Assembly: GCF_019285735.1 (NCBI RefSeq)
Contig: NZ_CP079107.1
Location: 1,488,001-1,552,000 of the forward strand
Reading direction: 5' to 3'
Length of the DNA stretch: 64,000 nt
From: Paeniglutamicibacter sp. Y32M11
GTDB taxonomy: Bacteria > Actinomycetota > Actinomycetes > Actinomycetales > Micrococcaceae
The translations under genes were made by a program, and so were the position numbers. The notes beneath the pieces are model-generated. The model was not told the origin of the DNA, made no database searches, and was given only the letters and a program-made list of their open reading frames with translations. Positions 2-11,332 of this stretch are shown piece after piece (positions within the stretch are counted from its first letter, which is position 1; every line of letters begins with the position of its first letter).

Positions 2-616
2 TTGAACCTCAAGCAGCTCTACCCGATTTCGATCACCATCGACGAGGTGAGCGAAGAAGCCGGCCACCGTGACGCTATCACCGCCGACCTGCTTGAGCGT
101 GAAATCCTTTCCGATGCACGCCTGCAATACGAAGCGCGCACGGAGGCTGTCGGCGAAAAGAATATGCGTGAACTCGAACGTCGTGTGGTGCTTTCGGTGA
201 TTGGCCGTAAATGGCAGGAACACCTCTATGAGATGGACTACCTCAAGGAAGGTATCGGCCTGCGTGCCATGGCCCAGCGTGACCCGCTGGTCGAGTACCA
301 GCGTGAGGGCTTCGTGATGTTCCAGACCATGATGGAATCGATTCGCGAAGAAAGCATTGGAATGCTCTTCAACATTGAGGTCGAAACTCGTCAGGAGCCG
401 CAAATCTCGCTACCGGGTGTCACGGATGCCCGTTCGATGACCTCCGAGCCGGTGCTCAATACTCCGGGGCTGGCAGCCCCGGCTAAACCATCAACATTGC
501 GCTACACCGCACCGGAAGAAACCGGCGAGGCGGTAACGCACACCGAGCGCACCGCTGGTGCCCCGGAAGCCGCAGATAAGAAGGCCAACAAAAAGAAGAA
601 GGGCAAGCGCAGCTAG
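2..616 (+). CDS. secA: Preprotein translocase ATPase SecA, C-terminal part (5' end outside window)
   Basis: This is the C-terminal 204 residues of SecA, the ATPase motor that pushes unfolded preproteins through SecYEG. The segment with [21 protein letters not shown], followed by [12 protein letters not shown] and MMESIREE, matches the helical scaffold and wing region of SecA. The tail is Pro/Thr/Ala-rich and ends in a lysine/arginine-rich run. The C-terminal cysteine zinc motif that binds SecB in proteobacteria is absent, as is usual in actinobacterial SecA1. The TAG stop shares the palindrome CTAG with the stop of the convergent downstream gene. A strong intrinsic terminator follows at 645-689. 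The N-terminal DEAD motor lies before the window. Confidence 0.96.
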
Positions 617-1284
617 CCAATCTCCAAGGCAGTAATCTGCCAGCGTCCGTGCCACCGCTCTACTCGTAGAGCGGTGGCACGGACTTTTTGCATGTCGCGC
701 AGGATCACCGCTGCCTCAAAGACCATCGGCAGCACCTGGGTGACTCGCATGCACATCACCCGTGGGTTGGAGTAGCAGCGCGTGGTGGGATCAGGACGCA
801 TGGGATCACTCAGGAGCATATGGGCCTCCAATTTTCCGAGGCAATCCGGACTCAGCGCCCGATTCAGCTGACGGACCGGACGGGCACCGGCCAGGACCTC
901 AAGAACCGCCGGTGCCGCGGCATGAACAACCGCGGCTACCGATTCCCGTGGAGCCAGCGGGCTGATCTCTGGCGGGAAGAGCTTCTCAAATACCTGTTGC
1001 GCGGCCATGCTGGGGGAGTTCTCCGGTGGGTCTTCCTCAAGGCCGCGCCGTGCCTCAGGAACGTCCCGCAGCGCAGATCCGGGAAGTGAGCGGAGGGCAG
1101 GAGGCGCCGTGGCATCGAGCAGGCAGCGACGTCTGCGGGCAACGGCGGGAGCTCGAAATGCTTCGGGAAAACGTCTGGCCGTGGTTCGAGGTGCCCGCAG
1201 GTCGGCGCCGGGAAGCGGGTTATTTCTGAATACGTGGATCGGCTCGGTGGTTTGAATGGATGGTTGAACTGCAATGGCGGACAT
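613..1284 (-). CDS. Rv3235-family small protein
   Basis: A 223-residue protein resembling the actinobacterial Rv3235 family, which is often found beside secA; its function is unknown. The first ~90 residues are Pro/Arg-rich and probably disordered. The conserved part is C-terminal, from about [12 protein letters not shown] onward (helical, small alpha/beta domain) and ends with [17 protein letters not shown]. The start chosen (ATG at 1284, protein MSAIAVQ) has AGGAG five bases upstream; a longer reading frame to 1395 lacks a better site. There is no signal peptide or membrane segment. It follows the LysM gene on the same strand (58 bp gap) and could be co-transcribed with it. Family assignment is by resemblance only. 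Confidence 0.75.
645..689 (+). terminator. Intrinsic terminator of secA, inside the convergent coding sequence
   Basis: A perfect 18-bp stem (arms 645-662 and 667-684) with the 4-nt loop CTCG is followed by TTTTT at 685-689. It sits 28 bp after the secA stop. The same bases encode the last part of the convergent gene (613-1284). Confidence 0.93.
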
Positions 1285-1342: not shown

Positions 1343-2134
1343 TTATGAGCGCTGCGCATTCTGGTGAGGTGCCCGCAAGATGGTTCCGACGGCAAGGCGG
1401 TTGGGGTTCGAACCGATCAGCTGGCGGTTCGCCTCGTACCAGCGAGGCCAGGCCTCGGCGATGTCCCTAACGGAGGCATCGTCGGGGAGGTTGCGCGCGG
1501 CGATGGCCCATAGGCTGTCGCCCGGACGGACCACCACCTCGATGGCGGTGCGTGTGGATTCGCCACCGAGCAGGCGCTGCAACGGCAACGGAACGCGATG
1601 CGGGATCCAGCCGGGGCTCAGAAGCTCATTGCCATTCTGGCTGGACTCGGCAGCGCCCGGATCAGTTGATGTGAATGCGGTGTCGGCCAGGGGAGATGTT
1701 GGTGGTGATATCTCGCTGACGGGCTGGTAGTCGGCCGCGACGGTCACCGCGGGGCCAGCCACGGCCGGGGGAGCGGCGAGAGCGATCGTTGTCAACGCCA
1801 ATGAACCACTTAACCCCGCCAATGTCAGACGGGCCACAAAACCCGGTACCAGCGCAGCCAGGGCCGCAGATTCCCGGCGCCGCCCAAGCGCTAATGCTAG
1901 GCGGGCGCCCAGTGCGCACGCGAAAGCGGCGACCAACCACAGCAAGACCATGGCGCCAAGCAGACCGAGGGCCACGCCCGTGAGGCGTTCAAGGGATGAA
2001 AGGTCCAACGGTGCCTCGGCGAGTGAATGTGCGCCCACGGCTGCCCAGAGCACCCTGCTGGCGCACAGCATGCCCAGGGAGAGGAGTGTGAGTGCCATGA
2101 GTGTCAGGGCGTCCCTACCGCTTCGGGTGCGCAT
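1343..2134 (-). CDS. Membrane protein with C-terminal LysM domain
   Basis: A 263-residue membrane-anchored protein. Two hydrophobic helices lie near residues 10-32 and 55-80, and a third near 100-120. A Ser/Pro/Thr-rich linker follows, then a LysM domain (about 203-258, starting VVVRPGDSLWAIAARN). LysM modules bind GlcNAc in peptidoglycan, so the likely role is in the cell envelope, tethering or sensing the wall; no catalytic domain is present. The ATG at 2134 is preceded by GAGG. The gene runs toward the Rv3235-like gene and is divergent from 2255. Its upstream region carries a 10-bp direct repeat array (2148-2197). Confidence 0.82.
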   Translation of the reverse strand: MRTRSGRDALTLMALTLLSLGMLCASRVLWAAVGAHSLAEAPLDLSSLERLTGVALGLLGAMVLLWLVAAFACALGARLALALGRRRESAALAALVPGFVARLTLAGLSGSLALTTIALAAPPAVAGPAVTVAADYQPVSEISPPTSPLADTAFTSTDPGAAESSQNGNELLSPGWIPHRVPLPLQRLLGGESTRTAIEVVVRPGDSLWAIAARNLPDDASVRDIAEAWPRWYEANRQLIGSNPNRLAVGTILRAPHQNAQRS

Positions 2135-11236: not shown

Positions 11237-11270
11237 CCAGCGCCCCGGATAAGACGGGAAAGAGAAAAAG

Positions 11271-11318
11271 CGAAGGGCGGTGTGCGGATTTCTTTCGAAA
11301 TCCGCACACCGCCCTTCG
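11271..11318 (-). terminator. Intrinsic terminator between pdtaS and transglycosylase gene
   Basis: A perfect 22-bp stem (11271-11292 and 11297-11318) with the loop TTTC. On the minus strand it is followed by CTTTTTCTCT, so it mainly ends the transglycosylase transcript, though it can also stop pdtaS read-through. Confidence 0.92.
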
Positions 11319-11332
11319 CCGTTCGGCGGGTA

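Follow-up and report, generated by a model that had tools for sequence, protein, structure and literature searches.

Bidirectional terminators have reportedly been described by Ju et al. in 2019. In the parts considered here of the four papers cited next, bidirectional terminators are documented in E. coli and Zymomonas (PMC7566282), and the stems of Bacillus cereus terminators evolve by compensatory change (PMC5381666). The program TransTermHP scores in-gene structures and, in short tail-to-tail regions, extends its search to 500 nt past the stop (PMC1852404), and in Rickettsia prowazekii convergent transcripts run into each other without termination (PMC3027695).

The locus described here lies in the window, the whole 64,000-nt stretch of Paeniglutamicibacter sp. 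Y32M11 DNA that was analysed, where secA converges with a gene of the DUF6459 family (the 'Rv3235-like gene' of an earlier note made from the sequence). It is composed of the following features:

2..616, plus strand: 3' part of secA, with the wing/scaffold domain and the Lys-rich C-terminal tail (SecA_SW PF07516, E 1e-32; open reading frame)
614-616, plus strand: secA stop codon TAG (sequence)
613..616, both strands: CTAG common to the two convergent stop codons (sequence)
613..1284, minus strand: DUF6459 (PF20060) gene, stop at 613-615 (PF20060 E 1.1e-22; open reading frame)
645..662, plus strand: 5' arm of the stem in the secA sense; its minus strand encodes the E-R-W-H-G-R part (folding)
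663..666, plus strand: hairpin loop (folding)
667..684, plus strand: 3' arm of the stem in the secA sense; its minus strand encodes V-R-A-T-A-L (folding)
685..689, plus strand: U-tract TTTTT of the secA RNA; on the minus strand AAAAA from the codons CAA AAA (Q K) (sequence)
1343..2134, minus strand: LysM-domain gene upstream of DUF6459 (PF01476, E 4e-5)

The DUF6459 protein matched PF20060 with 80.8 bits against a cut-off of 27. The ATG at 1284 is the probable start; the mechanical open reading frame extends to a TTG at 1395, which would result in an overlap with the LysM-domain gene. The latter may possibly share a transcript with DUF6459. A literature search, largely outside subscription journals, found no paper on DUF6459.

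Positions 645-684 read GTCCGTGCCACCGCTCTA CTCG TAGAGCGGTGGCACGGAC and are followed by TTTTT at 685-689. The stem (645-662 with 667-684) is perfect over 18 bp with the loop at 663-666, or 19 bp long if a 2-nt loop is allowed, and begins 28 nt after the secA stop codon. On the minus strand the bases of the hairpin encode 13 DUF6459 residues and supply the opening base of the R codon that follows. The earlier note had reported a perfect 18-bp stem with a T-run within the last codons of the convergent gene and stop codons sharing CTAG, both of which sequence and folding bear out; the hairpin and T-run do lie within that coding end, in its last 25 sense codons and not the 26 given there. As it had also pointed out, the DUF6459 mRNA can fold into the same hairpin, though without a U-tract on that side.

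From the sequence evidence we consider it very likely that the hairpin ends secA transcription as an intrinsic (Rho-independent) terminator working in one direction, and that it does so from an antisense position within the last codons of the opposing DUF6459 gene. It has a stable GC-rich stem, an adjoining U-tract, a position close to the gene end, and compensatory changes in the stem among relatives. RNA polymerase leaving secA would transcribe the hairpin 28 nt beyond the stop codon. Once the 18-bp hairpin folds, with the RNA-DNA hybrid weakened by the U-tract, the secA mRNA would be expected to end near 689-692, with the efficiency of termination likewise a prediction. Polymerase arriving from DUF6459 would pass the hairpin, because no U-tract follows on its side; it must also do so because the hairpin precedes the DUF6459 stop codon, which termination at this site would remove from the message. 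Beyond this point the DUF6459 message probably either continues antisense into secA or is terminated by Rho.

All 137 DUF6459 loci retrieved were examined (15 of 15 genomes of the genus and 130 of 149 of the family, with 8 genomes counted in both). A hairpin in the same register, with pairing always at i+j=-103 from the DUF6459 stop, was present in 45 of these 137 Micrococcaceae genomes. It was found in all 15 genomes of Paeniglutamicibacter (g1), 7/7 of Glutamicibacter (g23), 7/7 of the A. gandavensis group (g32), 6/7 of the A. agilis/A. ruber group (g31), 5/6 of g8, 3/3 of the Arthrobacter rhombi group (g18), and the single genomes of Zafaria (g30) and g9. P. terrestris adjoins the genome of the window, with 90% protein identity. 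On a tree of 121 rows the hairpin state changed at least five times, and the hairpin appears to be old, with losses, since the rows that carry it form two large groups. A covariance model of the hairpin had matches in 39 of 297 genomes of the order; the six strongest (E 6.8e-23 to 2.3e-17) were Micrococcaceae, at DUF6459 ends already among the loci examined, and the two best matches outside the family (L228 and L229) lacked both the DUF6459 motif and a secA end. Two sequences stood out during this work. An entry titled Vibrio cholerae strain 35D (L193, WNZI01000011.1) contains an Arthrobacter-like DUF6459/secA locus, i.e. a mislabelled or contaminated assembly, and one DUF6459 gene (L124, genome G033) has an in-frame TAG where the codon of a conserved tryptophan is expected.

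The stem was analysed in a gap-free alignment of 46 rows from seven genus codes, which were included regardless of whether they carry the hairpin. Over 22 pairs, 81.1% of the cells were paired, compared with 30-43% in slid registers. The earlier note had asked whether the bases co-vary so as to keep the stem, and they do: changes on both sides were found in 7 of the 22 pairs, and double-change cells numbered 80, where shuffles gave 29.4. The covariation score was 0.217 vs 0.130, and none of 500 shuffles scored as high. The same coupling is visible in single codons, as the VRA arginine codon of the hairpin genomes was CGT when facing His (19/24) and CGC when facing Arg (20/21). Rare codons build both the stem and the U-tract. 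At the stem base, AGA was used in 7/7 genomes of g32 (0/217 arginine codons elsewhere in the fetched loci) and in 5/6 of g8 (7/210 elsewhere); in the tail, AAA was used in 10/10 K codons of Paeniglutamicibacter (34/219 elsewhere) and TTT in 7/7 Glutamicibacter genomes (3/56 elsewhere), these rows being related genomes and hence not independent events.

The strand on which the hairpin acts was considered from its flanks and from the pairs within it. In the 45 hairpin genomes the 8 nt after the stem contained a mean of 4.00 T on the secA side vs 1.33 on the DUF6459 side, and at least 3 T of 8 were present in 42/45 on the secA side and in 0/45 on the DUF6459 side. Four or more T occurred on the secA side in only 30/45, and the Glutamicibacter and Arthrobacter agilis groups had weak tails beginning 3-4 nt past the stem. 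The codons under the U-tract were enriched in A in the hairpin genomes (253 vs 189.7 expected), and contained 237 vs 215.1 expected in the 91 others. Since a G.U pair on one strand is an A.C mismatch on the other, the third-position changes that are tolerated reveal the strand. In the core stem, changes of the type that yields G.U in the secA RNA were better tolerated (41 of 169, expected 81.8) than the type that yields A.C (15 of 258, expected 85.4), an asymmetry that was clear in 5 of 7 genus codes, tied in g32 and reversed in g18. This tolerance of G.U leans towards the secA strand rather than proves it.

These data bear directly on the possibility that the hairpin acts in the DUF6459 mRNA, by protecting its 3' end, pausing translation or controlling decay, and that its proximity to secA is incidental. 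The same stem also folds on the minus strand, T is a little commoner on the DUF6459 side of Paeniglutamicibacter than would be expected from codon usage (3.47 vs 2.23 in 12 nt), and three genomes (L112 and L115 of g32, L053 of g30) have a strong hairpin even though secA ends 46-53 nt away. Against such a role, the T-rich side faces secA alone, the G.U tolerance favours the secA strand, the hairpin is missing from all 32 genomes in which the stop codons are more than 60 nt apart, and the site lies in translated codons, where ribosomes would be expected to unfold the stem. We therefore regard a function in the DUF6459 mRNA as improbable.

The distance between the two stop codons was compared with the type of hairpin found. 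With the stops no more than 10 nt apart (n=49), 35 genomes had the register hairpin, 2 another in-gene hairpin and 12 none detected; with 11-60 nt (n=40), the corresponding numbers were 9, 7 and 17, with 6 hairpins spanning the DUF6459 stop and 1 in the gap; with more than 60 nt (n=32), there were 23 gap hairpins, 1 spanning hairpin, 8 genomes with none and no register hairpin. The genomes with an undetected secA end (n=16) were kept apart (1 register, 3 gap, 12 none), and terminator-like hairpins were seen in 6/137 coding control segments. The pattern fits a terminator that moves, but the association of hairpin with gap length is clumped on the tree of 121 rows, which yields only 3 independent pairs and no significance. 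Because 12 of the 49 short-gap genomes have no detected hairpin, it is dispensable in some lineages. The earlier note had named relatives that keep the protein end and lack the stem as speaking against its claim, and such relatives exist, in other Micrococcaceae genera as well as in Cellulomonas and Sanguibacter. Cellulomonas and Sanguibacter keep a VRAxALRxE..RGxW motif without the hairpin, with gaps of at least 51 nt, and g25, g8 L073 and g31 L037 have the VRAxALRxE..(W/R)(H/R)G motif, likewise without it. As secA mostly ends farther away in stemless relatives, often with a gap hairpin, they look like cases of terminator turnover rather than a refutation.

Other hairpins were noticed at the ends of secA and of other convergent genes. 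In g26, a hairpin unlike the register one has appeared within the DUF6459 coding end, at -44..-9 (L085, L089 and L130); its tail is rich in T, which makes it another candidate for an in-gene secA terminator. A survey of 384 kb of the genome called 280 genes and 50 convergent pairs, with DUF6459 missed by the gene caller and the secA pair consequently entered with a wrong gap; among 7 other convergent pairs with gaps of at most 10 nt, 1 (L219) had a hairpin in a coding end. Where convergent genes are tightly packed, hairpins within their coding ends were seen at L219 18040-18065 and L208 4870-4907, both in the same genome. A further long hairpin, with TTTTT on the minus strand, lies at 11270-11319 of the window in the space separating convergent genes and looks like an ordinary intergenic terminator.

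A bidirectional terminator serving both secA and DUF6459 is, in our estimate, very improbable. Such terminators are common between convergent genes according to the parts of two papers cited here (PMC7566282, PMC5381666), and the 612 nt downstream of DUF6459 hold no convincing intrinsic terminator of its own that would do better, the best hairpin having 8 pairs at 464-482 and no T-run. A U-tract on both sides is what a bidirectional terminator should have, and none of the 45 DUF6459-side tails has 3 T or more; termination in the DUF6459 direction would also precede the stop codon of that gene. The hairpin at 464-482 is itself a short, perfect GC hairpin, located in codons of the secA C-terminal tail.

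The proposed one-way terminator of secA also has to be distinguished from a structure that arises by chance or from the protein sequence. The 81-nt stretch around the hairpin had an MFE of -42.8 kcal/mol (z -6.61), and 0/200 dinucleotide shuffles were as good. Synonymous sequences were drawn with the DUF6459 protein held fixed and the codon usage of the host genome itself. Draws of this kind still gave a mean of 10.2 of the 18 pairs and moderately stable folds, as would be expected if the hairpin were a by-product of the protein, the VRAxALRxE..(W/R)(H/R)G codons being self-complementary; all 18 Watson-Crick pairs, on the other hand, were obtained in a fraction of only 1e-6 of 1,000,000 draws. 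In relatives, 20 codons were shuffled in each of 136 of the 137 genomes (L124, with the in-frame TAG, was dropped). With 300 draws per genome, folds as stable as the native one were found in 0/300 in 40 of the 45 register-hairpin genomes and in 1-7/300 in the other 5, which supports the protein-keeping side of the check that the earlier note had proposed. None of the 91 genomes without the register hairpin was at 0/300, and 3 were at 7/300 or fewer (L125, L135, L100). Two outgroup genomes gave 1/300 (L198, Nesterenkonia) and a borderline 9/300 (L196, Cellulomonas). With the motif occurring without a hairpin in the genomes named above, and with the rare codons AGA, AAA and TTT placed at the stem base and tail, a by-product of the protein sequence is rejected by the codon shuffles and is hardly tenable, unless some other cause biases the codons chosen at this site. 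Equally hard to sustain is a DNA-level palindrome, such as a protein binding site or a replication or recombination element, for which the perfectly palindromic arms might speak, since the arms change with compensation that a binding site does not need, the sequence occurs once in the genome, and the T-run is one-sided.

Both the window and the 4.17-Mb genome contain a single copy of the hairpin. A repeat or mobile element was ruled out, as the arms have no second copy in either, and blastn found no plasmid relatives. Comparison with the structured RNAs of Rfam 15 gave no match at the gathering score; the two matches at chance level had 20.4 and 19 bits, against 168 and 50 required.

On the protein side, the DUF6459 domain was predicted from 86 sequences (mean pLDDT 84.7), with its final strands at residues 126-136 and 139-147 and a tight turn between them. 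The top matches of the model in the PDB were weak, none having E <=0.001, and many were NTF2-like folds. By this model the bases under the hairpin would code for the final beta-hairpin of a putative NTF2-like domain. One arm of the stem corresponds to the start of strand 126-136 and the other to the end of this strand plus the turn, and therefore the RNA hairpin would run through the protein beta-hairpin. The turn varies between genera, which may be the reason why the protein can pay for the RNA hairpin.

We suggest only tentatively that the antisense terminator has shaped the residues of DUF6459 as well as its codons, certain residue changes having been fixed along with, or on account of, the needs of pairing and of the U-tract in the secA RNA. 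These changes would be from R to W-H at the beta-turn, from A/V to T on the strand that faces it, and from R to K/N before VRA. Counts were made in 130 genomes in register, with 7 of the 137 left out as out of register. T at the x of VRAxA was found only together with W (10/10) and only in hairpin genomes, and the residue before VRA was other than R in 15/45 hairpin genomes vs 4/85 others, counts that may stem from very few independent events. The 15 hairpin genomes with a non-R residue were all Paeniglutamicibacter (K in 10, N in 4, S in 1).

The locus would be a clear natural case of bases with two uses, maintained across several genera: read from one strand they would form a regulatory RNA hairpin, and from the other they encode a conserved protein end. 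The cost of tight convergent packing becomes measurable in this way, as codons, and perhaps amino acids, that are given up for the terminator of a neighbour. Such ends will be misread by measures of codon bias and by programs that mask coding sequence when predicting terminators or genes.

A search of titles and the openings of abstracts, largely outside subscription journals, found no report of a terminator conserved in the codon register of the facing gene. Like the intrinsic terminators of convergent genes, the secA hairpin is GC-rich, is followed by a U-tract soon after the stop codon, and shows compensatory stem evolution (PMC5381666, in the part cited); unlike them, it lies wholly in conserved codons of the opposite gene and not in the gap. 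With bidirectional terminators it shares a convergent pair and overlapping transcripts (PMC7566282, as far as the cited part describes them), but its tail is on one side, and transcription the other way has to pass the hairpin before the stop codon is reached. In-gene terminators are a category foreseen by TransTermHP (PMC1852404), and the cited part of that paper describes no case that is deeply conserved in one codon register. As in the portion of the Rickettsia prowazekii study cited here (PMC3027695), transcription of DUF6459 probably continues antisense into the neighbouring gene, but in our case one direction has a strong terminator-like signal. Terminators that reach into a convergent gene are known, and what is new at this locus is the fixed codon register and the depth of conservation.
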